Assembly (NCBI RefSeq): GCF_030270585.1
Contig: NZ_BSYI01000045.1
Span: 1-43,708, forward strand
DNA from: Paralimibaculum aggregatum
GTDB taxonomy: Bacteria > Pseudomonadota > Alphaproteobacteria > Rhodobacterales > Rhodobacteraceae
Reading direction: 5' to 3'
DNA length: 43,708 nucleotides
The translations under genes and the position numbers were made by a program. The notes below the pieces were generated by a model. That model was not told the origin of the DNA. It worked only from the letters and a program-made list of their open reading frames with translations, and did not search any database. Position 1 is the stretch's first letter; every line of letters starts with the position of its first letter. Below, piece by piece: positions 15,107-43,144 of this stretch.

Positions 15107-15705
15107 AACTCTATCACTCCGACACCTCGCCCTATGTGCGCAAGGTGATGGTCGCGCTGCACCTGGCCGGCAAGGCCGAGGCGGTGGACCTGGTGCCCGG
15201 CAGCGGCACGCCGCTCGATCCCAACGAGGGGACCTGCTCGGCCAACCCGCTCGGCAAGGTGCCCTGCCTGGTCACCGATGACGGGCTGGCGCTGTTCGAC
15301 AGCCGGGTGATCACCCGCCATCTCGACGCGACATTCGGCATCGGGCTCTATCCGGAGGGCGATGCGCTCTGGCCGGTGCTGGCGCGCGAGGCGCTGGCCG
15401 AGGGCATCCTCGATGCGGCGCTGCTGGTGGTCTACGAGGCGCGGCTCAGGCCGGCGGAGCTGCGCTTCAGCCCGTGGGTGCAGGGGCAGATGTCGAAGAT
15501 CCACCGCGCGCTCGGGGTGCTCGAGGGCGAGGCCGGGCGCTTCGGCGAGGGCTTCGATGCCGGGCTCGTGGCGGTGGCCTGCGCGCTCGGCTATCTCGAC
15601 CTGCGCTTCGCCGATCTCGGCTGGCGCGAAGGGCGCCCGGCGCTTGCCGGCTGGTACGAAGGCGTGGCGGAGCACCCCGCGCTGGTCGCGACCCGCCCGG
15701 CCTGA
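15103..15705 (+). CDS. Glutathione S-transferase family protein
   Basis: A 200-residue GST. The N-terminal thioredoxin-like domain starts KLYHSDTSPYVRKVMVAL, with Ser/Thr at the usual glutathione-activating position. NPLGKVPCL is the cis-Pro loop and LFDSRVITRHLD supplies the glutathione gamma-Glu contact. The remainder is an all-helical C-terminal domain. The start overlaps the MFS stop (ATGA), so the two are probably co-translated, pointing to handling and export or import of a small electrophile or its conjugate (inference). A composite inverted-repeat element follows about 40 bases after the stop. Confidence 0.88.
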   Translation: MKLYHSDTSPYVRKVMVALHLAGKAEAVDLVPGSGTPLDPNEGTCSANPLGKVPCLVTDDGLALFDSRVITRHLDATFGIGLYPEGDALWPVLAREALAEGILDAALLVVYEARLRPAELRFSPWVQGQMSKIHRALGVLEGEAGRFGEGFDAGLVAVACALGYLDLRFADLGWREGRPALAGWYEGVAEHPALVATRPA

Positions 15706-15744
15706 CGGTGCAGGTGGCCCGGCCCTGACGGGGCCGGGCGGGGG

Positions 15745-15900
15745 CGCCGCGTCGGGCCCTGTGCCGATGGCGCCGTTCCGCCCGCGGCGCAGGGGCCGAT
15801 GGCGCGCCGGTGGCCACGGGGCTGGGTTGCAACCGGCGCACCGGCGGCCACACGCGCCGCGGGCGGAACGGCTGCCGGAGGCGGAGCGCTGGCGCGGCGC
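15745..15900. repeat. Composite intergenic inverted-repeat element, copy 1
   Basis: The left arm (15745-15790) and right arm (15854-15899) are inverted copies of each other. They include a perfect 19-base match (15772-15790 with 15854-15872), and the outer ends are CGCCGCG and CGCGGCG. Between them is a core (15807-15841) containing the palindrome GGTTGCAACC (15825-15834), flanked by GTGGCCAC on the left and GGCGCAC on the right. The element fills the gap between the GST and LysE-type genes. The right arm is nearly the same sequence as in copy 2, in the same orientation, but the core is reversed. Confidence 0.8.
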
Positions 15901-15948
15901 CTCCTCGACCGGCCCGGCGCGGGCGGCCGCAGGCATCGGAGGACGGCA

Positions 15949-16596
15949 ATGCCCTGGACCGAGATCCTCGCCGCATGGGCGGTCTTCGGCGCCAACATCC
16001 TCAGCCCCGGCCCCAATGTCTTCAACACCATCGCCATCTCGCTCGGTGCCGGGCGGCGGGCGGCGCTCGCCATCGTCGCGGCCATTGCCATCGGCGTCGC
16101 CTGCTGGGCCGCCGCCGCGCTCCTCGGGGCGGCCGTCGCGTTTCGCCGGCTGCCGCTGCTCGAGCCGCTGCTCGGCTGCCTCGGCGGTGCGCTGCTGCTG
16201 CGGTTCGCCTGGCGCTATCTGTGCCGCGCCCGCGCCTGGCAGGCCTCGGTCGGCCCGGCGCGCGAGATCAGCCCGCGCGAGGCCTTCCTCACCACCCTCG
16301 CGGTGCTGGCCACCAACCCGAAGGCGCTGACCACCTGGCTCGTGCTGATCTCGATCTTTCCGGCCGGCACGGCGTCGCCCGGCGCGATTGCCGTGATGAT
16401 CGCCGGCTCGGTGGCGGTGGCGAGCCTCGGGCATCTCGCCTATGCGCTGGCCTTCTCCACCCGTGCCGCGGCCCGCGCCTATGCCCGGATCGGGCACTGG
16501 ATCCTTGCCGGCGTGGCGCTGTTCTTCGCGAGCCTCGGGACGGGGCTGCTCTGGCGCAACCTGCCGCTGCTGGTCGGAGGCGCGGGGCAGGGGTGA
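15949..16596 (+). CDS. LysE/RhtB family amino-acid exporter
   Basis: A 215-residue inner-membrane protein of the LysE/RhtB superfamily with about six hydrophobic segments. The family signature is visible near the N terminus (NILSPGPNVFNTIAISLGAG), and a second conserved block is FLTTLAVLATNPKALTTWL around residues 110-130. Homologues export homoserine, threonine, lysine, arginine or other small metabolites; the substrate here is unknown. ATG 15949 follows a CGGAGGA ribosome site and removes an upstream, non-membrane stretch of open frame. It lies directly after repeat element copy 1, whose stem may affect transcript passage from the MFS-GST unit. Confidence 0.88.
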   Translation: MPWTEILAAWAVFGANILSPGPNVFNTIAISLGAGRRAALAIVAAIAIGVACWAAAALLGAAVAFRRLPLLEPLLGCLGGALLLRFAWRYLCRARAWQASVGPAREISPREAFLTTLAVLATNPKALTTWLVLISIFPAGTASPGAIAVMIAGSVAVASLGHLAYALAFSTRAAARAYARIGHWILAGVALFFASLGTGLLWRNLPLLVGGAGQG

Positions 16597-16657
16597 TCCA
16601 GGGGGCTCGCCCGCGGCCGGACGCGTGCTAGATAGCTGCCGGGAGAGGAGATGCCCG

Positions 16658-17776
16658 ATGCGCCATGCCGACACCGCCTGCCGCCCGACCGACCCTGCAC
16701 CGGGTGCGGCGGAGATCGGCGCCCGTGCCGCCCGGTTCCGCGTCCTGCTGCTGCCGCTCCTGCTCGCGGCGCTGGCCGCCTGCGCGGGGCCACCGCGCGA
16801 GGTGGGCACGCCGCGCGCCGCCATGGGCGATGGCGAGGAGGGCTGGATCGCCTTCGCCTCCACGACGCCCTACGACTTCCCGCAGATGATCGACGGCAGC
16901 GCGCCGGACGCGGTGATCCAGGGCCGGCTGCTGCTGCCCGAGGGCACCGGCCCGGTGCGCGGGGCGGTGATCCTCAGCCACGGCTCCGGCGGGCTCGGGC
17001 TGCGCCAGCGCCGGGTTGCCCGGCGCCTGCAGGATGCCGGCTACGCGGCCTTCGCGATCGACCATTTCGGCCCGCGCGGCGTGCGCTCGACCGCCCGCGA
17101 TCAGATCCGCATGACCGCCCAGGCGATGCTCGCCGACGTGATGGCGGCACGGTTGCTGCTGGCCAGCCATCCGCGCATCCCGGCCGAGCGGATCGGCATG
17201 ATCGGCTGGTCCAAGGGCGCGATCACCGCGGTGCTCGGCGCGGTCGACCGGCTGGCCGGCTATGCCGCGCGCGGCGGGCCGGAGCGCCTTGCCTTCGCCG
17301 CCGCCTTCTACCCCTTCTGCGGCTTTGACTTCACCGGTGAACGGCTCTCCGGCCCGCTGCTGATGCTGCTCGGCGAAGCCGACGACTGGACCCCTGCCGC
17401 ACCCTGCCTGGCGCTGGCCGGGAACCTCGCCGCCGCGGGCGAGCCGGTCGAGGCCGTGGTGTTTCCGGAGGCGCCGCACGGGTTCGACGCCTTCATGCCG
17501 GTCACCGTGACGGTCGACAGGGCGATCACCGTGCGCGACGGCTCGGATCGCTGCCGCCTGCTCGCCGGCCCGGAGGGGCGCACCGAGACGCTCGACGGCG
17601 GGCACCGGCTCGACAGCCTCGAGGGGCGGCAGGCCTATCTCGCGGCGTGCGGCGAGCGGGGCGTGCGGTTCGGCGGAAACCGGGCGGCCCGGCGGGCGGC
17701 CTATGCGCATCTCTTCGATTTCCTGGACCGGGCGCTGCCGATGGTGTCGTCGCCGAGGGAAGGCTCAGGAGGCTGA
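16658..17776 (+). CDS. Dienelactone-hydrolase-like lipoprotein
   Basis: A 372-residue alpha/beta hydrolase. About residues 27-42 form a lipoprotein signal (LLLPLLLAALAACAG) with the lipobox LAAC, so the mature protein is probably membrane-anchored in the periplasm. The hydrolase core has an oxyanion strand VILSHGSGGLG and a nucleophile elbow IGWSKGAITAV, here Ser rather than the Cys of classical dienelactone hydrolase. The acid strand is MLLGEADDWTP and the catalytic His is in APHGFDAF. Substrate unknown. ATG 16658 has GGGAGAGGAG seven bases upstream. It is convergent with the sulfotransferase gene, with repeat element copy 2 in between. Confidence 0.82.
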   Translation: MRHADTACRPTDPAPGAAEIGARAARFRVLLLPLLLAALAACAGPPREVGTPRAAMGDGEEGWIAFASTTPYDFPQMIDGSAPDAVIQGRLLLPEGTGPVRGAVILSHGSGGLGLRQRRVARRLQDAGYAAFAIDHFGPRGVRSTARDQIRMTAQAMLADVMAARLLLASHPRIPAERIGMIGWSKGAITAVLGAVDRLAGYAARGGPERLAFAAAFYPFCGFDFTGERLSGPLLMLLGEADDWTPAAPCLALAGNLAAAGEPVEAVVFPEAPHGFDAFMPVTVTVDRAITVRDGSDRCRLLAGPEGRTETLDGGHRLDSLEGRQAYLAACGERGVRFGGNRAARRAAYAHLFDFLDRALPMVSSPREGSGG

Positions 17777-17801
17777 CGGAGCGCATCCGGCAGCGCCGGC
17801 C

Positions 17802-17961
17802 GGGCGCCGCGTCTGCCGCTGCGCCTCTGGAGCCCTCATGCACGCGGCGTGCTGCACGGGGTGCGCCGGTTGCAACCGGTCCCGGTGGCCACCGTCGGGT
17901 CGGCAGGAAACGCGCCGCGGGCGGCACGGCTGCCAGAGGCGGTCGGCGAGGCGCGGCGCCC
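17802..17961. repeat. Composite intergenic inverted-repeat element, copy 2
   Basis: The left arm (17802-17849) and right arm (about 17911-17961) are imperfect inverted copies ending in GGGCGCCGCG and CGCGGCGCC. The core (17861-17894) contains a perfect 14-base palindrome CCGGTTGCAACCGG (17866-17879), with GTGCG on its left and GGTGGCCACC on its right. The right arm matches that of copy 1 over about 30 bases (GCGCCGCGGGCGG then ACGGCTGCC and GAGGCGG). The element fills the gap between two convergent genes, where a bidirectional terminator would be expected, but no T-tracts are present. Confidence 0.8.
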
Positions 17962-17987
17962 CCTCGTGGCCGGTGGCCGGGTGCGCG

Positions 17988-18977
17988 TCAGCCGGTCTTC
18001 GGGCCGCCGGGGGCCGCGGGTCTCCCGGCGAGCCGGCGGAGCCCGTTGAGGCTGAGCCGCTTGCGCCAGGGGCGGGGGGCAACCGCAGCGTCCGGCGCGG
18101 GCGCGGGCGTGGGCGCGGGCCCGGAGGCGGGCGCCTGGGACATGCTCTCGGCCAGCGCCACCCTGGCCCGATTCTCTGCCAGGACGCTCCGGTGCAGCGT
18201 CAGGTCGGCGGCGAAGTAGCGCGCGACCAAGGCCCGGCTCTCGGCGTCGTAGAAGCTTGCCGGATCGATGCGCGACGGCTCGGCGATCTCCTCCGGCCAG
18301 AGCGTGGCGGCCTCCGGCACCAGCCGGTCCGGCACCGGCCGCGCCCGGTTGTGCGCGCCGATCGTCACCGTTTGCCCGAGCCGCCCGGAGAGATCGGCTG
18401 CCAGCAGGTCGAGATGCTCCATGGCATAGAGATGGGTGCAGGCGATCTCGGCGAAGCTGTGGATCTGCGGGCGCCAGTGAGGGTCCAGGCTTTCGGCCGG
18501 GCTGGCCAGCACATGCGCGAGAAAGTCGCGGAACCGCACGCCGCGGCCAAGGTCGGCGTCTTCCGGCGCGCAGCCCTGCACCGCCGCGACCACCGGCGCG
18601 GTGCTCAGCCCCTTGCGCTCGCGCCGGATGACGAACTTCTCCACATAGGCGCTGACCAGCCGGTCATGCGGGTCGCGCAGCACCGCGAAGCGCATCCAGC
18701 CGGGCTCCGCGAGAAAGCCTGCCGCCGCCGCCGCGTCGTGGTCCTTGAGCTGGAGCCCGGTCGCCTCGGTGTCGGTGACGGTGTGGACGTCGTGCAGGAT
18801 CTCGGCCTTGCGCGCCGCCGGCAGGGGCGAGAGCTCCACCGTCAGCCGTTTCAGCGAGGTGCAGGCATTCTTGGCGATGGGCAGGTAGAGCAGGCGGTGC
18901 TGCGGCAGCGGCATGGCCTGCAGGCTCGGCCAGCGGCGGTGGAAGGGCAGGGCGCTCTCGGGCCGGGTGTCGGGCAT
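17988..18977 (-). CDS. Sulfotransferase family 2-like protein with RKRLSLNG tail
   Basis: A 329-residue protein of the sulfotransferase-2 (carbohydrate sulfotransferase) type. The 5'-phosphosulfate loop is PIAKNACTSLKRL near residue 34. The 3'-phosphate segment is FAVLRDPHDRLVSAYVEKF near residues 97-115, with Arg and Ser in the expected places. Such enzymes move sulfate from PAPS to a sugar hydroxyl. After the catalytic domain there is an Ala/Pro-rich linker and a basic C-terminal motif, WRKRLSLNGLRRLAG, almost identical to the tail of the neighbouring gene's product. No signal peptide is present, so it acts in the cytoplasm. It starts eight bases after the upstream sulfotransferase stops. 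Confidence 0.83.
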   Translation of the reverse strand: MPDTRPESALPFHRRWPSLQAMPLPQHRLLYLPIAKNACTSLKRLTVELSPLPAARKAEILHDVHTVTDTEATGLQLKDHDAAAAAGFLAEPGWMRFAVLRDPHDRLVSAYVEKFVIRRERKGLSTAPVVAAVQGCAPEDADLGRGVRFRDFLAHVLASPAESLDPHWRPQIHSFAEIACTHLYAMEHLDLLAADLSGRLGQTVTIGAHNRARPVPDRLVPEAATLWPEEIAEPSRIDPASFYDAESRALVARYFAADLTLHRSVLAENRARVALAESMSQAPASGPAPTPAPAPDAAVAPRPWRKRLSLNGLRRLAGRPAAPGGPKTG

Positions 18978-23200: not shown

Positions 23201-23836
23201 CCGGCCCCTCTGCCACGGCGCCGCCCGGATCGCAAGGTTGCGCCGGCAGGGCGGGGCAAGCCCGCCAGCGCGCGAAACCGCCTGTCCCGGCCCTCTGCCG
23301 ATCGGCAGGCGGCATGGTGCATCGGGCGGTATCCGCCGGCGACGGCGCGCGCATTTCCGGCCCCTGCCGGTGGCGCCGCAGGGGCAATCCGGTTCACGTT
23401 CGCGGCAGACCCGCATGGCGCAGGAGAACGCGAACTGCAGCCATGGCGCCGCACGCTCCGGATCCGCCCGGCGGGAGACGGCCTGCCCGGCGGCATCGCG
23501 CGCCGCTCATCCCTTCCGTTCCGCCCCCCCCGGCAACGCCGCTTCGGCAGGGCCGCGGCGCACCGGGCCCGGCGGAGCGTCCGCCTTGCGCAGGCGCCGA
23601 TTGCGAGCCGGCCGGGCGGTCTCGTGGCAAGGCCCGCCGGCCCGGGGAGCGCGCCCCCGCCGCCTCCCCCACCCCTGCACCGTCGCGGCGGCCCGGAGGG
23701 CATCGCGGCCCACCCACGGGAGGCGGCGCGGCCGCGCTCCCCGGGCCGGCGCCGGCGCCCGCAGCGGCTGCCGCCCTTGCGCTCGGAGGTCGGCTCGGCT
23801 AACGCCCGGGCGATCCCTGCCGAAGGAGGCCGCCCG
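23201..23836. other. Gene-free spacer upstream of purB
   Basis: In this 636-base stretch the open frames on both strands are Arg/Pro/Ala-rich and resemble no family. It contains the large inverted repeat at 23635-23751 and a good ribosome site (AAGGAGG, 23823-23829) before purB. The purB promoter should lie here, but I could not locate it. Confidence 0.6.
23635..23751. repeat. 117-base inverted repeat upstream of purB
   Basis: Arms 23635-23668 and 23718-23751 are inverted copies matching at 32 of 34 positions, separated by 49 bases. The arms start CGCCGGCCCGGGGAGCGCG and end in GCCGCCTCCC. The end of the repeat is 85 bases before the purB start codon. Confidence 0.88.
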
Positions 23837-28699: not shown

Positions 28700-30419
28700 G
28701 GCGGCTCCTTCTGCGGCTCAGGGGGACAAGCTAGGGCGGTGGAGTGCCCCGGGTAGCAGGCCTGGGCTCGCACCGGGCCGCGCCCTGCCGGGCGCCCCCC
28801 GCCTGCCGAGCGGGGCGCCGCGTCTGGCGTTCCGCCAGTGGCGCCCGGCCGCCCGCGGCGTGGGACATGCCGCACGCGCGTGGCGACGGGGTCCGTTGGC
28901 TAGGGGCACACCCTGCGGGTCGTGAAGCGCGAGGGGGATCGGCGGCGATGTGGTGTGAGCCGGTCTGCCCGGGGTAGGTGTCGGGCTCCGGGATGGGCAG
29001 ACCGCGCTCGATGGAACGTCGATCTCAGGCTTGGGCCAGTATCGTTTTCGGCATGCGCTTGCAGGGGGGGCGGAGGCATTGGCGTTTCGTGTCTTTGGTT
29101 GTCCGCCGGGATGCGACGGGGCGTGTGGCGGAGCATCTGGCGCCGGAGACGGGGGGGCGGGGACATGCGCTTCCGGTGCACCGGAACGCATCGAGGGGCG
29201 CGGCGACGCGGTGAGCGGGCTTCGCGGAGGCGCGCGGCCGGACCTTGGTGAAGCGGTGCGAGCGGCTGGCCGCGCACGGGATCCGCGCGGCCGCAGAGCT
29301 TCCGGCGCCATGGCATCGAGCGGAAAACGGGCCGAGCGGGAGCGGCCGGATGCCTTGGGCGCGCGGCGTGCCTGGTTCACCTCGCGGCCCGGTGCCGGCC
29401 AGGCCCGATCCCGGGTAGCTCGGCCCGCCGCCCAGGCCGCGCCGCGATGCCGTCCACGCGGCCTGGGCGGCGAGCGACATGGCGCGCAGCCATGGGCGCT
29501 GTCCGCGGCTGCGGGCGGGTTCCCGGTGCAGCCATCGCGAGATCGCCACGCCTGTCGCCTGTCGCCGGTCTGCGGCCGGGCGGCTTGGCAGCGGCGATCT
29601 GCGCGTCGATGGTGCCGGACGCTCCGGTCGGCGGCGACCGGTTCGCGGCCGGTCTCCGCCATGTCCCGCGAAGAGTGCCGTCTGCGGGCTGAAGGCGCGG
29701 CTCCGCAGGGCGGCCGGGCGAAGGGGTGTCGGCCTCCGGCGCGCCACCTGTCGCAGCGCCGGTCCCGCCACGCCGGGCGACACCGCAAACCTCGCCAACG
29801 CCGCCGGCCTTGAAGCGGAGCGGTCGGTAAACGCTCCGGGGAATGTTCCGGCCGGCCTGGCGCGTATCCGGCAACGGTGAAGGGATCTCGACGATCGTAC
29901 GGGGGACGCCGTCGGAGTGCCGGCGGCGCGGAAACTGCCGGTCAGGTGCCGGGCCATGGGCGCCGCCAACAGGCTGGGATGCCGGGCCGGTCGCCGAGGA
30001 CGAGCGGCGGAACCTTCGGCGCCCTGGAATGGGCCTGGCCGGGGCAATCGGCCCGGGAACCGGGCGATGGGACATGGGCCCCCGTTGGCGGAGGGGGCGT
30101 CGCGTCTCGCGTCCCGCTCCCGGCAACCGCTCGTCCGCGGCGGGGGGCGATATCGCGCCCGTGGCCGCGAAGCCGCGGCGGCCGGCGCTGAAAGGCTGGG
30201 GCGGGCGCCGCGGGCCCATCGTGGGACTGCCGGGCCGTTCGTGCTGGGGCGGTCGCGAGGGGAGGAGATACCTCGTGGTCCGGCGCGGGGCGGGCGGATC
30301 CCGGGGGGCCGCCTGGGTCGGCCCCGGCAGGCACCGGCCCGGGGACCGCCGTCGATGCCAGGGGCATGCCAGGCGGACCAAGACAGGCGGCGGCGGGTCC
30401 GGATGCGGTTGGGACATCC
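28700..30419. other. Long stretch with no recognisable gene, probably decayed
   Basis: No open frame on either strand resembles a known family; the frames are short or Arg/Pro/Gly-rich. A solo repeat arm (28812-28862) and a perfect 16-base palindrome (29171-29186) lie here. Because the tnpC remnant ends near 30420 with more than half of the protein missing, part of this stretch may be its eroded 3' portion. One short frame near 30190-30300 (minus) hints at tnpC, but I cannot confirm it. Confidence 0.5.
28812..28862. repeat. Solo arm of the composite intergenic repeat
   Basis: GGGGCGCCGCGTC, then TGGCGCC, then GCCCGCGGCG repeat the order and spacing of the left arms at 15741-15790 and 17801-17849. 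The matching right arm and the GGTTGCAACC core are absent. It contains a small stem CTGGCG-TTC-CGCCAG. Confidence 0.55.
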
Positions 30420-31123
30420 GCAAGCGGGGCCGCAGCGCCTTCATCCCCCGTCCGCACCCGTCCACCATGGCCGTATCGGGGATGTCGGCGCCCGGCTGCG
30501 CGAAGCTCTCGTTCCGCCGCTAACGCGGGAAGGGTCGTCGAGCTTCGAGGTCAGGATGCAGGCCGGCAGGCCGGAACCCGCCATGCTGCCCGGGATCGGC
30601 CGGTTCGATGCCGGCTCCCGCGCCATCGTCTCGCAGCGGCGGCAGGCCGTCTTCATCCGGGCGATCCCGATCACCATGAGCCGGGCGGCGATCAGGTCGA
30701 GGGCTCGCTCATGTCCTGGCCAGTGATGCCCGGGGCGCCGCCGCTATCGGGGCAGGTCTCGCCGGGGTCCAGCCCGCGGCGCTCGCGCGGTGTGCCCTCC
30801 GTGACACGGGAACGACGCTGCGGCCTTGTCTGCTCCGGGGCGTCGGAAGCGGTGTGGTGCGCGTCCTCGCTCTCGTCGGTCGGGCTGTCGTCGCCCTCGG
30901 CAACCGCCACCTGCAGATCCTCGAGCGCCAGCCCGAGCTGCGCGATCTCGCGCTCGACTGTCTCCGAGTGCGCTCCGAAGGCTTGGCTGCACAGCCTGGC
31001 GACCCTCACGCGCAGCGTCGCCGACATCCTCTTGTTGTCCGTCCGCGGGGCGACGGCAACGACCTTCGGAACCGTGCGATCATCGGGCAGTTCGGTGGGT
31101 GCGCTTGACTTGTTCTGATCCAT
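30420..31123 (-). pseudogene. IS66 tnpC transposase remnant
   Basis: The N-terminal part of a DDE-type IS66 transposase. The recognisable blocks in order are VRVARLCSQAFGAHSETVER (the helical zipper with the family FGRRSE position changed), IAQLGLALEDLQVAVAEG, then TCPDSGG with DMSEPS (family CPDCGG and GEDVSE). In a shifted frame near 30677-30440 the blocks RMKTACRRCETM and PGSMAGSGLPACILTSKLDD follow, then GCGRGMKALRPRL. Frameshifts and the loss of the second zinc Cys show it is inactive. A full tnpC has about 500 or more codons; the DDE catalytic part is not recognisable. Confidence 0.72.
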
Positions 31124-31239
31124 TTCGAGCGCCGCTCGCCCGCCACGAAAGCACGCGAGATCAGTGAGATGGGGTAGCCTACCCGGGCCGGCGGTGCTTT
31201 TCGGTTCGGGCGGCGCCAGTCGCTCTTCAGCGCGGCTCT

Positions 31240-31554
31240 CGGATCTGTGGCGGGTCAGCGCCTCAACCCACAGCATGGCGAGCTGCGTCGAGGTCAGCCG
31301 GGCCGCTCTGTCGTCTAGTGAGGGCCGGGAAACCGGCCCCGCTCGAGCGCCTTGAAGTAGAGGCAAAGACACTGACCATCACAGTGGAGCGGCTTTCGCC
31401 TGACATCGCTGCGGTCCCTGAACGCGAACACCACACCGCTGCTCGGCTGCTGGCGCAGCATGTCCTGAGTCAGCCCGGCCAGCCCGGCGATGCCCTTCCT
31501 CATATCCGTCGCGCCGCAGGCGAGATACCTCCGTACCCCGGTGCCTGGCCCGAT
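31240..31554 (-). pseudogene. IS66 tnpB remnant
   Basis: The clearest of the remnants. GVRRYLACGATDMRKGIAGL corresponds to the TnpB N terminus. SSGVVFAFRDRSDVR, GQCLCLYFKALERGRF and, after a frameshift near 31330, ARLTSTQLAMLWVEAL complete the protein. TnpB is an accessory protein needed for transposition of IS66 elements. The frame is broken and a stop follows GRFPGPH. Confidence 0.8.
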
Positions 31555-31559
31555 CCTGC

Positions 31560-31844
31560 CGCGGCCGCGCTGGATGCGTCCGTCCCTCGACACGATCTCG
31601 CCATCCCGCCATCGCAAGCGGGCGACCCGCCCGCGCCAGGTGCCTCCGGCGAAGGAAAGGCCGTGTCTCCAGAACGGGGTCATGGCACCTTGCGGCGAGA
31701 TTCCCACCGCGGTCGGAAGATGTGCTGGGGTGTCGGATCGTGTCTGCGGGCAATCTCCGCGGCCGCGCCATCCATTCCGATCTCGGTCAGGATCGACAGA
31801 AACTGGTCGTCCGACTGACGCTGCCAACGATCATCTCGTGTCAC
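31560..31844 (-). pseudogene. IS66 tnpA-like remnant
   Basis: DDRWQRQSDDQFLSILTEIG and AAAEIARRHDPTPQHIFRPR form a helix-turn-helix of the TnpA kind. The frame then shifts to give HDPVLETRPFLRRRHLARAG. It stands directly before the tnpB remnant, as expected for IS66. Confidence 0.6.
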
Positions 31845-32496
31845 ATGTCCGCTCTCCGCCCGATACGATGTCGCTTCCGACGGCAATGACGATGGAGCAC
31901 AAGTCACGCCTTTGCACAGGGCAGACAGCGCCATTCGGGCGGCTACGCCGCGCCGCCGGCTCGGCCTCGGGCACGCAAGGCGGTCGTCCGCCGAGCCGGG
32001 CGGCATCCCTCCCGCGACGCCGGGGCCGGGACGGCTGCTCTCGCAGTCCTCGGGGAAGCCTTCCGTCACCTGCGGGGCCCCTGATCGGCCGTAGCCGGGT
32101 CGGGCTCGGCAGGGCGTCATCCGGCTCCGCGGCCGCGTCGCAGCGCTTCGGCGCATTCGCCGCGCCGCGCACGTCATCGTGGCGCTTGGTCTGCGGTTCT
32201 GTCAGGTGCTGCGGTTCGCGGCGAGCTACCAGTCGTCGAGGCGGCCAGGAAGCCGCCGCTTCCCATCCCTAACCACTCCGGGAGGGATCCGGCGGTGCCC
32301 GCGCGCGCGATGCATCGTCAAGGCCCGCTTCGCGGCCCTCTCGGGCGAACGCCGAACACCGGAACCGCTCACCCGATCTCCAGCAGCTCTCCTGGACATG
32401 AAAGCCCCGACAGGCCGGGCGTGGCCGAGCCTGCGCGCGATCGGGCCGGCTCGGCGCACCCGCGAGGCCGGTACGGCCCCGCAGGCCGAACCCCGG
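31845..32496. other. Spacer between the IS66 remnant and the ligase gene
   Basis: In these 652 bases I find no gene and no IS66-like terminal repeat. The open frames are Arg/Pro/Ser-rich shadows. No clear hairpin with a T-run follows the minus-strand ligase stop at 32497. Confidence 0.45.
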
Positions 32497-35230: not shown

Positions 35231-38200
35231 TCAGGCGAGCAGGCTGTCCTCGATCAGGTCGAGCAGCTCGCCGTTGAAGGAGATGCCGGTGACATTGCCG
35301 TCGCCATCGGTGGTGACGTCGACCGCGATGTCGAAGGTATCGTCCGCCGTGCCCATGCCGTCCGGCGTCGCACCGTCCTCGAGATACTCGACGCCGATCC
35401 GCGCGAAGTAGTCGGTGGCGCCATCGAGCGGCTCGACGGTGGTGTCCGGCGCGACGTCGAGACCGGCACCGGTAAGATCGATCCCCGGATCGCTGTCGTC
35501 GATCAGGATGCCCACCTCGCCGCTGCCGTCGGTGCCGACGATGGCGAAGGAGACGATGTCGAGCAGGTCCGGGTCGTCGACCAGGCCGGAGAGGCCGAAG
35601 GGCGCGGTCTCCGCAACCTCGATCTCGTTGCCGGTGATCCCGCTGAGGATCTCGCTGGCCTCGAGATAGAGCTCCGAGTCGATCTCGATGACGCTGAGCG
35701 AGCTCGATGTTCCGGTGAACAGCACGTCGAAATGGGTCTCGACCGTGGCGCCGCCATCGGCATCCGAAGCGGTGATGGCATAGGTGGTCTCGCCGCCGCC
35801 ATCGGTGGTCTCCACCACTTCGGTCACGTTGAGCGTCGCCAGCACCGCGGCCGGGATGTTCACCGTGGCCAGCGCGTTGCTGGCGAAGCCGTCATAGTCG
35901 GTGATGTCGACCAGCTGCTCGTTGACCGGATCCCAGTAGAGGTTGGGGTTGATGTCGGAGACCCGGTTGATGGTCGCCGGGTCGTAGCCCGCCGCCAGGA
36001 TATCGGCATCGGTCTTGGTCTGGTCGAGCAGCCAGACTTCGCTGCCGCCGCCGAAATCGACCCCGCCCGGATCGACCACCAGGATGCCCTGGCCGAGGTC
36101 GCTCGTGTCGGTGAAGTCGAAGATCGGTGCCTCGGTGATGCCGAGCTCGGTGGCGACGTAGTTGGTCAGGTCGATCAGACCGGTATCGGCGATATCGACG
36201 CCGCCATTGATGGCATAGACCACGCCGACCGAGCTGTAGGGATCGTAGTCGCGGATCTCGAAGGCATCGAAGACGCCGAACTGCGCGGTGAAGAGATCGA
36301 AGAGATCCACCTCCGTCACGCCCACCATCGCGGCGAACTCGGCGCGCAGCTCGAGCACCGTGCCATCGGTGACCGTGCCGTTGGTGAACACCACCGAGGC
36401 GCCCTTGATCTGCTTGTTGGCGGCAAGGAAGCCGGTGAAGTTGAACTTCTGCCCGCCAAGAGCCGCCCAGGGCGAGCCGTTGACGTTGATCACGCCGAGA
36501 TTGGTGGTGGTCTCGAAGCCGGTGATCGAGACCGTGTCGGTCTCGCTCGCGCCGGTCAGCGTGCGCAGATAGTCCTCGGTGTCGACCGGGCTGCGGTCGA
36601 AGAAGCTCGCGACCACGATCTCGGTACCGTTCTGGAGACCCTCGGTGCGCAGGCCGAACAGGCCCGGATCGATGAGGCCCTCGACCGGATCGATGTCGCC
36701 ATCGCTGTCGAGATCGCCCAGCTCGCCGAAATACGGGTCCGGATCGAGGCCCGCCTTGCCGGCGATCAGGCTGTCGCCGCCGGTGACGTCGTCGCCGATC
36801 AGGTTCGGGTCATCCGCCGGATCGGGCGCGTTGCGCGATTCCGAGAAGCCCGTGCTGGCGGCGAGCAGGATGGTCTGGTTGGTCTCCGCGCCCTCCTCGC
36901 CAAGATACTTGGCCGCACGGCTGAGGGCGGTTCCGATATCGACGGTGTCGAATTCCGCCTGCTCCTCGACGGTCAGATCCTCGACGAAGTCGAACAGGCC
37001 GGCGAACATCCCGCTGGCGTTGAGGTTCGACGCGGCGACACTGATATCGGTCACACCGATGCCACCCGCCGCCTGCACGATCGCATCCGCGGTGAGCGGC
37101 TGCCCGTTGAACTCGGTCAGCGTGGTGTTGATCGGGCTGCCGGCGGCCGGGCCGGAGGCGATGGTGCGCCCGTCGCTGGCACGGGCATTGGTGACGATCG
37201 CGATCTCCTGGTCGCCGCGATCCGACCCCGCCAGCTGCGTGGCCAGTTCCCAGACACCCATGATCGCGAAGTCGACCGGGGTGCCCGCACGGCCCGAGGC
37301 GTTGGCGTCGCCCGCCGCAGCATACTGGCCGCCGCCGCCGGTGCCGGCCGCCGGGTTGGAGACGTCGACGATCACCGCGATCGCCTGGCTCTGCGCCCGG
37401 TCGGTGGTGATGTTGCCGGCGATGGTGATCTCGTCCGACTGGCCGCTGCCGTCATCGATCAGGCCGGCATCGACATCGTTGTTCACCTCGCCGCGGGCCA
37501 GCGTGATCGTGCCGGTCTCGCCGGTGATCACGTCGGCGTCGCTGTCGAGCGCATCGTCGCCGGCATCGGCGGCGGTGAAGGTCAGGCCGCCGTCGGGGGC
37601 CAGCACGAAGCGGACCTGGTAGTCGCCCTCGGCGAGGCCGGTGAAGCCGTAGACGCCGTCCACCGTGGTGGTGGTGCCGATCACCGCGCCGCCGCTCAGC
37701 AGCTCGACGGTGACGCCGTCGACGCCCGCCTCCGAGCCGCCCTGCAGGCCGTCGCCATCGGCATCGAGCCAGACGAAGTCGCCGATTGCGCCGGTCATCG
37801 GGTCCGGCTGCTCGACGAGGCCGGCATCGACGTCGTTGTTCACCTCGCCGCGGGCCAGCGTGATGGTGCCGGTGGTGCCGGTGGCGTCGGCATCGCTGTC
37901 GAGCGCGTCATCGCCGGCATCGGCGGTGGTGAAGTCGTAGAGCGAGCCGTCCGGATTGGTGAAGCGGACCTGGTAGTCGCCCTCGGCGAGGCCGGTGAAG
38001 CCGTAGACGCCGTCCACCGTGGTGGTGGTGCCGATCACCGCGCCGCCGCTCAGCAGCTCGACGGTGACGCCGTCGACGCCCGCCTCCGAGCCGCCCTGCA
38101 GGCCGTCGCCATCGGCATCGAGCCAGACGAAGTCGCCGATTGCGCCGGTCATCGGGTCCGGCTGCTCGACGAGGCCGGCATCGACGTCGTTGTTCACCTC

Positions 38201-41200
38201 GCCGCGGGCCAGCGTGATGGTGCCGGTGGTGCCGGTGGCGTCGGCATCGCTGTCGAGCGCGTCATCGCCGGCATCGGCGGTGGTGAAGTCGTAGAGCGAG
38301 CCGTCCGGATTGGTGAAGCGGACCTGGTAGTCGCCCTCGGCGAGGCCGGTGAAGCCGTAGACGCCGTCCACCGTGGTGGTGGTGCCGATCACCGCGCCGC
38401 CGCTCAGCAGCTCGACGGTGACGCCGTCGACGCCCGCCTCCGAGCCGCCCTGCAGGCCATCGCCATCGGCATCGAGCCAGACGAAGTCGCCGATCGCGCC
38501 GGTCATCGCGTCGATGAAGCCGGCATCGACATTCTCGGTGGTCTCGCCGCTCACCACGGTGACGCCGAGGACCTCGCCGGTGGTCGGGTCGGCATCGCTG
38601 TCGGTCTCGTCGGCGCCGACATCCTGCGCGGTGAAGGCGAGGCCGGTCTCGTCCGGGTTGAGGAAGCGCACGGTGTATTCGCCGGCATCGACATCCGAGA
38701 AGATGTAGCTGCCGTCGGCCTCGGCGGTGGTGGTGCCGGTCACGCTGCCATCGGCGGCGATGAGCTGCACCTCGACACCGCCCAGCAGATCGTCGGTGCC
38801 GATGTCATACTGGCCGTCGGCGCCGGCATCGAAGAAGGCCTGGCCGGTGATCGCGCCGCCCGGCTCCGCCTCGCCGACGACGGTGATGTTGACCGTCGCG
38901 GTGTCGGTGATCGGGGCGTCGCCCTCCTCCACGGTGCGCAGGTTGTCGAGCGCGCCGGAGCCGGCGAGCACGATGGTCATCTTGACCACGTTCGCGCTGT
39001 CGCCGCCCGCCGCGGCCGCGGCCGCCGCGATGTCGAAGCCCGGGGCGACGCCGCCATCCACGGTGATCGGGCCCGCGAAGGTGATGGTCGAACCGTCCGC
39101 CTTCTCGAGGGTGATCTGCGGGGTCGGCTCCTCGGTATCGATGAAGTCGAGGCTCTCGATGCTCCGCGGGGTGGCGAAGGTGAACTCGAGGGTGCCGCCG
39201 CCGGCCTGGTCGTCCGGGTCGGACTGGTCCATGTCCTCGGAGATGATCAGCACGCCGCCCTGACCCACGTTGAGGTCCGGGTCGTTGCCGGTGACCACGC
39301 CGTCGGAGTTCAGGATCATCGCCCGGTTGGTCGGATCGCTGCCGCGGGTCGCGAGCACCGAGATGCCGTTGCCGAGATCGCTGACCAGCGCGCCGCCGCC
39401 ATCCGGGGCCGGGCCGGTGAGGATCTCGAAGTCGAGCGTGGTCTCGGTCGAGGTGGTGCCGCCGGGGCGGGAGACCTCGTAGTCGACCGCGAAGGTGATC
39501 GTCTCGTCCTGCTCGAGGCTCTCGAAGTCGTCCACCACGAAGGTGAAGTTGCCGTCGGCGTCGATGGTGAGCGTGCCGGTATACGCGTCGCCGTCCGGCG
39601 CGGTCACGATGACCCCGGCCGGCTGGCCGACCGCGAGGGTCTCGCCGGGCTGCAGCGCGACGTTGGACGAGCCGAGCGACAGGCCGGTGACGGTGAGATC
39701 GGCGAAGTCGGTGCCGTCCTGCACGCCGCCCGCGACCGGGAAGGGCAGGCCGGTGAAGCCGCGATCGTCGCCGTCGACGATATTGGCGCCGCCGACGGTG
39801 GCGTCATCCTGCAGCACCGAGCCGTCCTCGGAGAAGGCATAGTGATCGTCCGCCGGCTCGACCACGATCACGTCCGGGCTCTCGCCGTTGACGGTGATCG
39901 TGACATTGGCGGTGCTGGTGGCCGGATCGCCCGGCTCCGTGAGTGCGACGTCGAGGTTGTCGACCGCACCGGAGCCGGCGAGGACGATCTTCAGCTGGAC
40001 GACATCGGTGGCATCCTCGCCCTGCAGCGCCGCCGCCTGGGCGATGTCGAAGCGCGCCGCCTCGCCGTTGCCGGTGACCGTGCCGTTGAGGGTGACGGTC
40101 GAGCCGTCCGCCTTGGTCAGCACGATCTGCGGGGTCGGCTCCTCGGTGTCGATCAGGTCGATGGTGTAGAGCGTGGCGGGGGCATCGAAGTCGAAGATGA
40201 TGGTGCCGCCGCCGGCATTGTCGTCCGGCGCCGTGTCGGAGCCGTTGTTCTCCTGCACGATCAGCACGTTGGAGAGCTGGCCCGTGGTCGAGGCGCGCAG
40301 ATCGTTGTCCTCGCCGAACTGCGTGGTGTCGTAGATCCGCGCCACGTCCTGCGAGCTGCCCGGCCGGAAGGCCGAGATGGTCATGCCGTCGATCTGGTCG
40401 GTGACGTAGTCGCCGCCGGAGAGGTCGTCGAAGGTGACGGTCTCGCGCACCGTGGTCGAATCCCCGGCGACATCCGAGGTGATGGTGTACTGGAAGGTGG
40501 TCGAGACGCTGTCGCCGTCGAACAGCGTGTCCTCGGTGCCGGCATCCGGCACGAAGGTCAGATTGCCGTCGGCGTCCACGGTGGCAATGCCGGTGATGGT
40601 CTTGCCGCCGCCGGTCAGGGTCAGCGGGAAGCTGTCGCCCGGGGCATAGTCGGTGCCGTCGACGGTGACCGTGGTCAGCGAGAAGCCGTCGCCGTCCTCG
40701 TCGCGGTCGACCAGGCCGTCGGCCGGATCGGCATCGAGGATGATGTTGGCCTGCACGGCCTGGCCGGCGCCGATCTCCTCGTCCTCGTTGATGGTGTAGG
40801 CGTTGTCCTCGGCGATCGGCGGGTTGTCGCCGCCGCTGTTGTCGCCGGTGGTGCCGATCACCGTGACGGTGATGGTTGCGGTGTCCACCGGAGCCGGGCC
40901 ATCGGGCGATTCGGTGCCGATGAGTTTCAGCGAATCCTCGCGCGCGCCGCCGTCGGGGCCGACGCTGGTGGTGCGCAGGCCGAACTCCTGGCCCGTCAGC
41001 AGATCGAGGCTCAGCGTCTGACTGGAATGGCTGAGGACGAACTGGGTGAACTGGATGTCGTCGCCCGCCTGGCCCTGGGAGCCGATCTCGACGCCGCCAT
41101 CGAAGCCGCTGGTGGCGCCGTTCATGTTGGCGCCGTTACCGAGGTTCTTGACGCTGTTGGCGAAGAACTGGGTGGTGCCGACATCCGGGCCGGTGGCGAC

Positions 41201-43144
41201 CAGGCCCGAGAGCAGGCTCTCGTCGGCGACATGGAAGAACAGGCCGCGGATATCGCCGATATCGCCGCCGTTCTCCAGCACCTCGACCGTCACCTGCAGG
41301 GTGCCGTTGACCTCGATGATGCGCGCCTGCGCCTCGAAGCCGTCGGGGCCGCTGAAGTCATAGACCAGCTGGTCATGGGTCGTGCCGCCGCCGCCGCCGT
41401 TCGGATCGGTGATCTCGTAGGTGAAGGTGGTGGTGCGGGTCTCGCCCGCGGCGAGATCGTCGAAGGCGCCGGCCGCGTTGAAGTCGAACTCGCCATTGGC
41501 GTCGAGGGTCGCCACGCCGCCGTTCGAGCCGGCGAGCAGGGTGCCCGGGGCGCCGCTGCCGAAGGCCGAGACGACGGCGCCGTCCGGATCGTCGTTGTCG
41601 AGCACGTTGAGATCGACATCGCCGGCGGCCTCGCTGGCCGAGACGATCAGGTCATCGTCGACCGCATCCACCTCGGTCGTGGTGCTGTTCGTGGTGGCGG
41701 TGCCCGGATCGGTGGGCGTGTTCTCGGAGGCGACGCCGGTGCTGGAGTTCAGCGCCTCGACCGCCACGTTGTCGACCCGCCAGACCTCGGAGGCGGCGGT
41801 GCTGTGCGACTTGAAGCGCAGCTGCACGCTGTCGTTGCCAGCCTCGATGTCGTAGCTCAGCGTGGTGTAGCTGTCCTGGATGAAGCTGCGACCGCTGCTG
41901 CCGGTGAAGACCTGCTTCCCGTCGATCCAGTCGGTCGCGTAGAAGGTGTCGATCCGCTCCCAGCCGGAGCCGGTGTTGATCTCGACAGCGAACCAGTCCT
42001 CATACTGGTGGCCCTGGGCCTCGTGGCCGCCGCCCTCGGCCTGGATCTCGAAGTTGATCCGGCCGGCGGCGCCATCGAGCTGCGCCGCGACGAACTCGCT
42101 CACCGCGTTCTTCTTGTTGCCGACGAGCGTGTCGTACTCGGTGTGATAGCCGGTCTCGTAGGCAATCTCGCTGCGGTCGTTGTTGTCGAAATCGGCGAGC
42201 AGCACGGTGGTCGCGTCGAGGCCGCTGTCGAGGTCGGAGGCGAGATCCGCCAGGCCCGCGTCGTAGAGATTCTCGTAGTAGCTGACGCCCGCGCTGTCGC
42301 CCTCGAGCGCGATGCTCATGCTGGCCAGCAGCGCGCCGGCCTCGAGCGCGAGATAGCCGACCTCCTCGGAGGTGTGGCTGGTCTCGTCGTTCTTCGACTG
42401 CTCTTCCTCGACATAGACGGTGGCGCCGGAGCCATCGACATAGGAGGCCCGCACGGTCGCGGTGTCGCCGCCATCGGTCGACTGCATCTGCGCGAAGAAC
42501 ACCACATTGCCCGAGACGCCGTTGTCGAAGGTGATCTCGTGCTCGTTGTGGGTGACGGTGTCGCCGGTGCTGCCGGCATTGGCGCCGGCGCCCGGATCGA
42601 TCGCGATCACCGAGACGGTCTCGTTGCCGTGCGCGGTGTGCGCCTCCTCGCCCTGCAGCTTGATCTCGAAGCTGTCGCTGTCGATGTTGCGCAGGCGGGT
42701 GGTGACGGCGTCCTCGTCATTCGTGGTGACCGTCTGGGCCAGCACGATCGGCGCCGCGGAGAAGCTGTGGCTGCCGTCGAAGCCGCTGTCGAAGCTGATC
42801 TCGGTGAAGCTGTCGGAGACGGTGAAATTCTCGGCGACGATGGTGGAGCCGTCCTCGAGCGTGTGGATGCCCTCGGCGACCGCCATCCAGGAGATGCTCT
42901 CCACCGGATGCGCGCCGTTCTGGTATTCCCACTCGTCGATCTGGAAATAGAAGCCGTCGTCGTTGATCCCGTCGGCCCGCATCACCACCGGGTGGCTGCT
43001 GTTGGTCGTGTTGACCATCAGGACGACCACCGGGTTGCGGATCGACTGATCGAACGCGATGTAATGCCACTCGTTCGAATTGGACTGCGCGACATCAAGC
43101 ACGCCGGCCTGACCGATCACCTGTCCCGTGCTGCTGGTCGTCAT
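35231..43144 (-). CDS. Giant modular surface/secreted protein, probable type I secretion substrate
   Basis: A 2,637-residue acidic protein without a Sec signal. Modules (approximate residues): three tandem beta-rich lectin-like repeats (14-108, 109-190, 200-272; VESISWMAVAEG, NETVSVIAIDPG, EEVGYLALEAG); a jelly-roll-like part (285-480); cadherin/VCBS-like modules (490-590, 775-905, 1070-1245); an unnamed domain twice (910-1065 and 1250-1405, both with IDTEEPTPQI and VLAGSGA-DNL); one divergent (1425-1546) and three near-identical SdrD_B-like repeats (1547-1900, DFVWLDADGDGLQGG); a VWA-like part (about 1915-2100, AIAVIVDVSNPAAG); and a unique C terminus ending LLDLIEDSLLA. Many DxDxDG loops suggest calcium binding. 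ATG 43144 follows GGGGAGA. Adhesin or matrix function is inferred. No T1SS genes are adjacent. Confidence 0.88.
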   Translation of the reverse strand: MTTSSTGQVIGQAGVLDVAQSNSNEWHYIAFDQSIRNPVVVLMVNTTNSSHPVVMRADGINDDGFYFQIDEWEYQNGAHPVESISWMAVAEGIHTLEDGSTIVAENFTVSDSFTEISFDSGFDGSHSFSAAPIVLAQTVTTNDEDAVTTRLRNIDSDSFEIKLQGEEAHTAHGNETVSVIAIDPGAGANAGSTGDTVTHNEHEITFDNGVSGNVVFFAQMQSTDGGDTATVRASYVDGSGATVYVEEEQSKNDETSHTSEEVGYLALEAGALLASMSIALEGDSAGVSYYENLYDAGLADLASDLDSGLDATTVLLADFDNNDRSEIAYETGYHTEYDTLVGNKKNAVSEFVAAQLDGAAGRINFEIQAEGGGHEAQGHQYEDWFAVEINTGSGWERIDTFYATDWIDGKQVFTGSSGRSFIQDSYTTLSYDIEAGNDSVQLRFKSHSTAASEVWRVDNVAVEALNSSTGVASENTPTDPGTATTNSTTTEVDAVDDDLIVSASEAAGDVDLNVLDNDDPDGAVVSAFGSGAPGTLLAGSNGGVATLDANGEFDFNAAGAFDDLAAGETRTTTFTYEITDPNGGGGGTTHDQLVYDFSGPDGFEAQARIIEVNGTLQVTVEVLENGGDIGDIRGLFFHVADESLLSGLVATGPDVGTTQFFANSVKNLGNGANMNGATSGFDGGVEIGSQGQAGDDIQFTQFVLSHSSQTLSLDLLTGQEFGLRTTSVGPDGGAREDSLKLIGTESPDGPAPVDTATITVTVIGTTGDNSGGDNPPIAEDNAYTINEDEEIGAGQAVQANIILDADPADGLVDRDEDGDGFSLTTVTVDGTDYAPGDSFPLTLTGGGKTITGIATVDADGNLTFVPDAGTEDTLFDGDSVSTTFQYTITSDVAGDSTTVRETVTFDDLSGGDYVTDQIDGMTISAFRPGSSQDVARIYDTTQFGEDNDLRASTTGQLSNVLIVQENNGSDTAPDDNAGGGTIIFDFDAPATLYTIDLIDTEEPTPQIVLTKADGSTVTLNGTVTGNGEAARFDIAQAAALQGEDATDVVQLKIVLAGSGAVDNLDVALTEPGDPATSTANVTITVNGESPDVIVVEPADDHYAFSEDGSVLQDDATVGGANIVDGDDRGFTGLPFPVAGGVQDGTDFADLTVTGLSLGSSNVALQPGETLAVGQPAGVIVTAPDGDAYTGTLTIDADGNFTFVVDDFESLEQDETITFAVDYEVSRPGGTTSTETTLDFEILTGPAPDGGGALVSDLGNGISVLATRGSDPTNRAMILNSDGVVTGNDPDLNVGQGGVLIISEDMDQSDPDDQAGGGTLEFTFATPRSIESLDFIDTEEPTPQITLEKADGSTITFAGPITVDGGVAPGFDIAAAAAAAGGDSANVVKMTIVLAGSGALDNLRTVEEGDAPITDTATVNITVVGEAEPGGAITGQAFFDAGADGQYDIGTDDLLGGVEVQLIAADGSVTGTTTAEADGSYIFSDVDAGEYTVRFLNPDETGLAFTAQDVGADETDSDADPTTGEVLGVTVVSGETTENVDAGFIDAMTGAIGDFVWLDADGDGLQGGSEAGVDGVTVELLSGGAVIGTTTTVDGVYGFTGLAEGDYQVRFTNPDGSLYDFTTADAGDDALDSDADATGTTGTITLARGEVNNDVDAGLVEQPDPMTGAIGDFVWLDADGDGLQGGSEAGVDGVTVELLSGGAVIGTTTTVDGVYGFTGLAEGDYQVRFTNPDGSLYDFTTADAGDDALDSDADATGTTGTITLARGEVNNDVDAGLVEQPDPMTGAIGDFVWLDADGDGLQGGSEAGVDGVTVELLSGGAVIGTTTTVDGVYGFTGLAEGDYQVRFVLAPDGGLTFTAADAGDDALDSDADVITGETGTITLARGEVNNDVDAGLIDDGSGQSDEITIAGNITTDRAQSQAIAVIVDVSNPAAGTGGGGQYAAAGDANASGRAGTPVDFAIMGVWELATQLAGSDRGDQEIAIVTNARASDGRTIASGPAAGSPINTTLTEFNGQPLTADAIVQAAGGIGVTDISVAASNLNASGMFAGLFDFVEDLTVEEQAEFDTVDIGTALSRAAKYLGEEGAETNQTILLAASTGFSESRNAPDPADDPNLIGDDVTGGDSLIAGKAGLDPDPYFGELGDLDSDGDIDPVEGLIDPGLFGLRTEGLQNGTEIVVASFFDRSPVDTEDYLRTLTGASETDTVSITGFETTTNLGVINVNGSPWAALGGQKFNFTGFLAANKQIKGASVVFTNGTVTDGTVLELRAEFAAMVGVTEVDLFDLFTAQFGVFDAFEIRDYDPYSSVGVVYAINGGVDIADTGLIDLTNYVATELGITEAPIFDFTDTSDLGQGILVVDPGGVDFGGGSEVWLLDQTKTDADILAAGYDPATINRVSDINPNLYWDPVNEQLVDITDYDGFASNALATVNIPAAVLATLNVTEVVETTDGGGETTYAITASDADGGATVETHFDVLFTGTSSSLSVIEIDSELYLEASEILSGITGNEIEVAETAPFGLSGLVDDPDLLDIVSFAIVGTDGSGEVGILIDDSDPGIDLTGAGLDVAPDTTVEPLDGATDYFARIGVEYLEDGATPDGMGTADDTFDIAVDVTTDGDGNVTGISFNGELLDLIEDSLLA
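37445..38506 (-). repeat. Three 354-base tandem repeats inside the giant gene
   Basis: Units 38153-38506 and 37799-38152 appear identical apart from two synonymous changes near their starts. Unit 37445-37798 is the same over its first two thirds and then diverges. Each encodes one 118-residue SdrD_B-like module starting MTGAIGDFVW. Frame is kept, so unit number could change by recombination without breaking the gene. Confidence 0.92.

Follow-up and report, generated by a model that had tools for sequence, protein, structure and literature searches.

The window analysed here, a stretch of 43,708 nucleotides from Paralimibaculum aggregatum (positions 1 to 43,708 of contig NZ_BSYI01000045.1, assembly GCF_030270585.1), carries two intergenic repeat elements, C45a and C45b, whose core had appeared in a first-pass annotation to be inverted relative to its arms. 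Are these invertible elements, mobile repeats, or signals in RNA? We find that each of them consists of one repeat unit facing another and that the middle is not flipped relative to the arms. Both come from a family of intergenic palindromes that is dispersed in the genome and prefers gene ends. The family is similar to repetitive extragenic palindromes (REPs) and bacterial interspersed mosaic elements (BIMEs), with an unusually long unit, and if it has a role, this would probably be in the form of hairpins at the 3' ends of mRNAs.

Each element is an inverted dimer of one repeat unit

Both elements lie where the first-pass annotation had placed them (Table 1), and the inverted arms of about 46 bases that it described are indeed present: left and right arms are identical in 38 of 48 aligned columns in C45a and in 38 of 50 in C45b. 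As it had also noted, the right arms of the two elements resemble each other in the same orientation (42/49 columns identical). An automatic repeat scan paired part of C45a with part of C45b as inverted repeats of 84 nt (74% complementary), with a third arm at position 28812.

Alignment of the 24 halves of the 12 full copies delimited in the genome of the window (G000; 5.5 Mb in 201 contigs) revealed that left and right sides are the same unit. This unit is oriented and about 75 nt long. Its outer word, GCGCCGCG(T/C)C, is followed by a GCC-n-GTGGC-like word and by CCCGCGGCGC, whose sequence allows 8 bp of pairing with the outer word; a second GCC-n-GTGGC-like word lies at the inner end. An alignment of 52 units, 24 of them from G000 and 26 from G008, a genome of another genus within the same family, gave a helix in which GCGCCGCG and CGCGGCGC enclose a loop of about 35 nt, and the consensus CGnnGGGG 5' of the stem. 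These 52 units also served to build a sequence-only model of the unit, R2; of the 85 unit sequences listed (single Albimonas units already excluded), those left out of the alignment were the remaining 22 from Albimonas and 11 from G000 and G008.

A full copy is an inverted dimer in which the inner ends of two units face each other, and full copies in G000 are 163 to 256 nt long. The loops between the arms mostly measure 45 to 71 nt, with longer ones reaching 153 nt, and at one locus (L029) a third arm permits a second pairing with a 246-nt loop. Units without a partner were found at 6 loci in G000, two of them in the window, at 17 in G008, 2 in G003 (a genome of the same genus as the window) and 9 in Albimonas, counts in which a weak partner may be missed, as at L256 and L270.

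The dimer has no polarity

The core segment quoted in the first-pass annotation does align better when flipped, since C45b matches the reverse complement of C45a in 30 of 35 columns and this beats the forward sense. Over the whole core, however, the flipped alignment is barely ahead (45/67 columns, compared with 42/65 in the same sense). We do not see the core as inverted relative to the arms in any meaningful sense. In the 12 full copies, a maximum-polarity statistic did not exceed a null obtained by swapping left and right bases per column, either for the arms (p = 0.83) or for the core (p = 0.62). In simulations of 12 copies by 80 columns, which covered the whole half unit only, a 10% difference between left and right was picked up in all 25 runs, and 8% of the runs without divergence gave p < 0.05.

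Core orientation agreed with arm orientation in 31 of the 66 copy pairs and disagreed in 30, with 5 ties; among the 13 pairs with strong signals in both arm and core, the numbers were 8 and 5. The summed concordance score was exceeded by 240 of 2048 ways of flipping the cores, a weak lean toward agreement of arm and core, which is the opposite of inversion. The pair C45a/C45b scores +7.5 for the arms (same sense) and -6 for the core (opposite sense), and an arm difference at least as large occurs in 17 of the 66 pairs. This pair is an ordinary draw, and an apparent inversion of the core is expected by chance from a symmetric dimer. Because the dimer is symmetric, left and right are undefined and there is no core orientation to invert; nor did we find a polarity that recombination between the arms could flip. 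The similarity of the two cores is in essence explained by their palindromes, a possibility that the annotation itself had raised.

The family within the genome and among relatives

Further copies of the element are plentiful in its own genome, which bears out the proposed repeat family with conserved arms. Searching G000 with C45a yielded eight full or nearly full-length loci including itself, plus shorter pieces; the other seven share 72 to 77% identity with it, and every locus matches on both strands. A covariance model of these eight copies reported ten loci at E ≤ 0.1 (150 of 7084 candidates scored), and we finally delimited five half copies in addition to the 12 full ones. With R2, for which 150 candidates were scored in each genome, the matches that reached E 1e-3 numbered 33 of 38 in G000 and 62 of 65 in G008; the 24 and 26 units used in building the model match by construction. 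The arm pattern occurred 32 times against 17 in the reversed control in G000 and 29 times against 9 in G008. A second pattern, combining the middle and inner words, was weak (47 vs 29 in G000, 19 vs 10 in G008).

A full-element model (R1, at most 47 candidates scored per genome) matched 2 of 61 relatives at E 0.01, namely G000 and G008, and BLAST with one copy at E 1e-3 matched 15 of 41 genomes, mostly through short pieces outside those two. Among the genomes of the window's genus that were examined, G003 alone gave convincing units, two in number. At E 1e-3, R2 matched 92 of 295 family genomes (at most 15 candidates scored per genome), but this tally is not the distribution of the repeat, because many of the loci read are coding matches. 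Sorted by eye, 60 fetched loci comprised 25 in the leader of an FG-GAP gene, 11 in a B12-type ribonucleotide reductase gene, and 9 antisense to a dnaE2-like gene; the other 15 (5 in G129, 2 in G153 and 8 in G234) were judged to be intergenic. In G234, where our gene caller performs poorly, non-coding status was judged from the shortness of the frames: none above 143 codons runs across the units in 6 of the 8 loci, the exceptions being frames of 332 and 202 codons in L348 and L351. Long open frames cross the units of G129 and G153, which is not unusual at high G+C. G003, G129, G153 and G234 also contain unit matches that we regard as intergenic. In a phylum-wide control of 299 genomes, R2 matched 10, of which 5 lie outside the family and score at most 23.1 bits.

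Among the matches listed from named genomes, Albimonas recurs (A. pacifica, A. donghaensis and Albimonas sp. CAU 1670); apart from Albimonas and a record labelled HTM 045, these matches are mostly one per organism, and four of them were read. The HTM 045 record (WNWL01, "Oceanobacillus sp. HTM 045"; loci L149, L179 and L191) contains three arms identical to arms of G008, and its name looks wrong.

G234 (L346-L353) carries a sister family in which the stem word is changed on both sides (GCGGCGCG / CGCGCCGC): CGCGCCGC replaces CGCGGCGC in 10 of 10 matches, with the compensating GCGGCGCG in 9 of 10. A similar CCTCGC-n-TCGGCTCGG or TCGCTCGG string stands before the copies at L346, L349 and L353.

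The repeats prefer gene ends

Gene positions are predictions from a simple caller based on codon usage, for which the window served as training set; they are not an annotation. None of the 17 delimited copies in G000 lies inside a predicted gene. The 12 full copies comprise 8 between convergent genes, 3 between tandem genes and 1 scored as divergent (with a neighbour 1,089 nt away), and the five half copies divide into 3 convergent and 2 tandem; repeating the analysis with altered bounds on a slightly modified set placed 10 of 17 loci between convergent genes. For comparison, the 26 adjacent gene pairs of the window, including those that flank copies, are 15 tandem, 6 convergent and 5 divergent, so that convergent placement of full copies (8/12) exceeds that of window gene pairs (6/26; Fisher p = 0.013). 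In G008, convergent genes flank 14 of 25 loci, against 22 convergent pairs among the 96 gene pairs at those loci; the numbers are 10 of 20 in Albimonas and 0 of 2 in G003. Two loci in these latter sets extend into a predicted gene, one by 14 nt and one by 1 nt.

The distance to the gene end is short in G008, where a predicted stop codon precedes 19 of 33 outer ends by at most 30 nt; in Albimonas this holds for 8 of 31. In G008, moreover, a TGA stands exactly at position -8 of 11 of the 33 outer ends; 9 of these TGA codons coincide with the predicted stop, with the unit following 5 nt later.

Comparison with known repeat families

The REP/BIME elements of the GTAG super-family are intergenic palindromes that occur singly or as inverted dimers, mostly behind genes; they sit between convergent or unidirectional genes, often less than 20 bp from the gene end, their dimers fold separately or as one large hairpin, and one REP super-family has been reported without a transposase (PMC3733652). 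For REPs within 15 nt of a stop codon, translational effects and ribosome stalling have been reported (PMC12306157). Inverted dimers and gene-end placement are equally found in the present family, although its unit measures about 75 nt compared with 20 to 40 in REPs, a GTAG near the outer end is seen in just 1 of 52 units, and no REP-associated tyrosine transposase (RAYT) or other Y1 transposase (PF01797) was detected in the three genomes searched (G000, G003 and G008), whereas 5 of 14 control genomes matched.

CGTC-tagged REPs have an unpaired CGTC (or TGTC, CCTC) tag, a stem of 8 to 9 bp whose first two pairs are AT, a loop of 4 to 5 nt and a CCA tail (PMC3733652). They share with the present family alphaproteobacterial hosts, inverted dimers, gene-end placement and the lack of a known dedicated transposase. 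The CGTC string itself is present in 32 of our 52 units and CGCC in the other 20. Unlike in those REPs, however, the CG of CGTC lies within the stem word, the loop is about 35 nt long, and the consensus has neither AT pairs at the start of the stem nor a CCA tail. Judged by tag, loop and RAYT, the family does not belong among the tagged REPs.

A third class of comparable repeats is that of miniature inverted-repeat transposable elements (MITEs). Among palindromes of this type, RUP and NEMIS fall into the same size class as the present repeats (PMC3733652). ERIC, Correia and RIME are further palindromes of the MITE type, and the present family is like these elements in size class, terminal inverted repeats and intergenic position. 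Here, in contrast, a half unit can stand alone and no target-site duplication was detected: in 31 full copies forming three sets (12, 8 and 11), duplication was not above that of permuted flanks (p = 0.24, 0.17 and 0.79). Inverted arms are present, but no parent transposon is known for the family, although no search aimed at one was made. No description of the family from Rhodobacterales appeared among the open-licence PubMed Central papers listed.

A probable role at mRNA 3' ends

As the most likely mode of action, we infer that the unit is transcribed together with the upstream gene and forms a hairpin within the 3' end of that mRNA; a dimer between convergent genes would serve both transcripts. 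As reported for REP elements, such a hairpin could shield 3' ends, limit readthrough or slow ribosomes at the stop codon. The repeats would have been spread by some enzyme.

Both window elements fold better as single strands than dinucleotide-shuffled sequences: C45a reaches -138.5 kcal/mol (z = -6.9), a value equalled by 0 of 200 shuffles, and C45b -114.7 kcal/mol (z = -2.7), equalled by 1 of 200. A scan against Rfam 15 that covered the whole window, and of the family the copies in it alone, gave 0 matches above the gathering score. A structured RNA, as suggested in the first pass, is possible. Pairing between the arms is feasible in the 12 full copies, but individual copies do not maintain it.

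Several observations weigh against our account. Complementarity between the arms is no better within a copy than between copies in G000 (p = 0.37) and G008 (p = 0.88), and because of this no selection for a long hairpin is visible in these two genomes; Albimonas shows a weak effect (p = 0.04). The 8-bp helix of the unit is nearly invariant in the 52 units and therefore uninformative on covariation, of which there is none, and the compensatory change in G234 amounts to one pair in one genome. The distance to the stop codon is not fixed in G000, where 4 of 28 outer ends are no more than 30 nt away from a stop and none of these has a TGA at -8. Within the genus of the window, the arm pattern was not clearly more frequent than in the reversed control (2 vs 7 in G001, 3 vs 3 in G002, 11 vs 10 in G003 and 2 vs 3 in G004), and neither window element has a T-run terminator in the scan of 15600-18100.

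The most serious rival is that the repeats are selfish DNA, MITE-like or REP-like, without a function for the host; we consider it less likely, but the main alternative. Dimers would then arise from the mode of copying, and copies would survive mainly between convergent genes, where they do least harm. Such an origin accommodates the independent divergence of the two units of a dimer in G000 and G008, the variation between genera in loop length and in the share of single units, the lack of a clear excess in the same-genus genomes tested, and the imperfect inverted arms and full-copy lengths of G000, which fit the MITE size class. The first-pass suggestion of a mobile repeat remains plausible as to origin, but the hallmarks of mobility looked for above, a target-site duplication and a Y1 transposase, did not appear in the sets and genomes named. 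Furthermore, no match at E 1e-3 was obtained in a plasmid collection, with the copy at 15740 as the sole query, or in a phage collection, with the copy at 17800 as the sole query. The exact 5-nt spacing behind TGA at 9 of 33 outer ends in G008 is also not what random survival would be expected to produce.

It is considerably less probable that the family consists of bidirectional intrinsic (Rho-independent) terminators. Convergent placement would suit such a function, but the outer ends inspected are mostly G- or C-rich rather than T-rich, and the scan of 15600-18100, which covered the two window copies and no others, returned a single candidate at 16506-16518, outside both elements. A canonical terminator, with a GC-rich stem and a T-run, was accordingly rejected for the window copies, and the terminator proposed in the first pass is not supported in this form. 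Two units of G008, L259 and L279, lead straight into a GC-rich stem and then a T-run, which looks like a fusion of the unit with an intrinsic terminator; this pair speaks for the terminator reading.

An invertible element, flipped by recombination between its arms, is hardly credible: the opposing arm and core signals of C45a/C45b favour it, but the 12 copies show no polar segment in both orientations between inverted repeats despite good power for the whole half unit, concordant and discordant pairs balance, and the arms match in only 76 to 79% of columns.

Matches in coding sequences

In other genera, R2 also matches the signal-peptide region of an FG-GAP gene that in most cases directly follows a 2Fe-2S ferredoxin gene. 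Such matches occur in 23 genomes, at 25 loci when L385 and L386 are counted (L321-L326, L328-L340, L354, L356-L358, L385 and L386; for example L323, 1490-1624, the one locus in which the FG-GAP and ferredoxin domains were checked). The ferredoxin gene ends within 33 nt before the unit in 19 of 23 leaders. These 23 leaders score 20.8 to 36.5 bits, compared with at most 9.8 for codon shuffles (100 each), and chance would seem to explain the scores less well. In G000, G003 and G008 the FG-GAP gene likewise follows a ferredoxin gene, and in G234 the homologue lies elsewhere; around the FG-GAP gene of these four genomes no unit match exceeded 6.2 bits.

One scenario, which we regard as unlikely, would connect these leaders with the repeats. 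Rhodobacterales repeats anchored to stop codons, placed 5 nt behind TGA via some enzyme, could have left one ancient copy behind the ferredoxin gene, and this copy could have been translated and domesticated as the signal-peptide region of the FG-GAP protein (A-P-R-x-x-x-R-L-W-x-x-x-A-R-G-A). The leader match may instead be a coincidence.

Other R2 matches fall in the coding sequence of a B12-type ribonucleotide reductase (L359, L360, L368, L370-L372, L374, L378, L379, L382 and L383) and on the antisense strand of a dnaE2-like gene (L355, L367, L369, L373, L375-L377, L381 and L384). One locus per coding class was compared with a protein library. The reductase segment (L371) aligns to 1xje without an insertion; since it is not an insertion, coding matches can be chance, with GC-rich coding words imitating the unit. 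Neither of the two alignments obtained covers the dnaE2-like stretch, and a search with the fragment alone brought up no solved structure at E 0.01. REPs have been reported to target DnaE2 genes (PMC3733652).

Other features of the window

C45b is flanked by a dienelactone-hydrolase-like gene on the plus strand and by a predicted gene at 17988-18977 on the minus strand. The two single units of the window both lie in a 3.8-kb region (28700-32496) that has no confident gene call and looks like a decayed insertion-sequence region; within it, an open reading frame at 30692-31372 on the minus strand matches the IS66 leucine-zipper domain. A strong intergenic hairpin of a different kind is found at 23635-23751, with 34-nt arms that are 94% complementary and 49 nt apart. 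Finally, a predicted gene of about 2,640 codons at 35231-43144 on the minus strand contains internal repeats spaced 354 nt apart (37607-38614), two of which are identical over 300 nt, with a third at 80%.

Table 1. Members of the repeat family in the window and their parts
Feature	Coordinates	Strand	Remarks
C45a, full copy, two inverted units	15740..15904		Between glutathione S-transferase (GST) gene and LysE-type gene (tandem)
C45a, outer arm of left unit	15744..15790	+	
C45a, core, inner ends of both units facing each other	15791..15853		
C45a, outer arm of right unit	15854..15900	-	
C45b, full copy, two inverted units	17800..17963		Between convergent predicted genes
C45b, outer arm of left unit	17804..17850	+	
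C45b, core	17851..17911		
C45b, outer arm of right unit	17912..17959	-	
Single (half) unit, same family	28808..28887	+	R2 44.8 bits; one of the 52 rows of R2, match partly by construction
Single unit, same family, more diverged	30090..30168	+	R2 30.8 bits; not among the 52 rows of R2

Implications

The analysis settles a suspected invertible repeat as a symmetric repeat dimer. With it, the REP-like repeats gain a Rhodobacterales family of long-unit palindromes that has no known transposase. If the fixed spacing behind the stop codon is true, these repeats would offer a clean natural set for the action of repeats on translation termination and mRNA 3' ends, and also for the way in which repeats without a known transposase spread.

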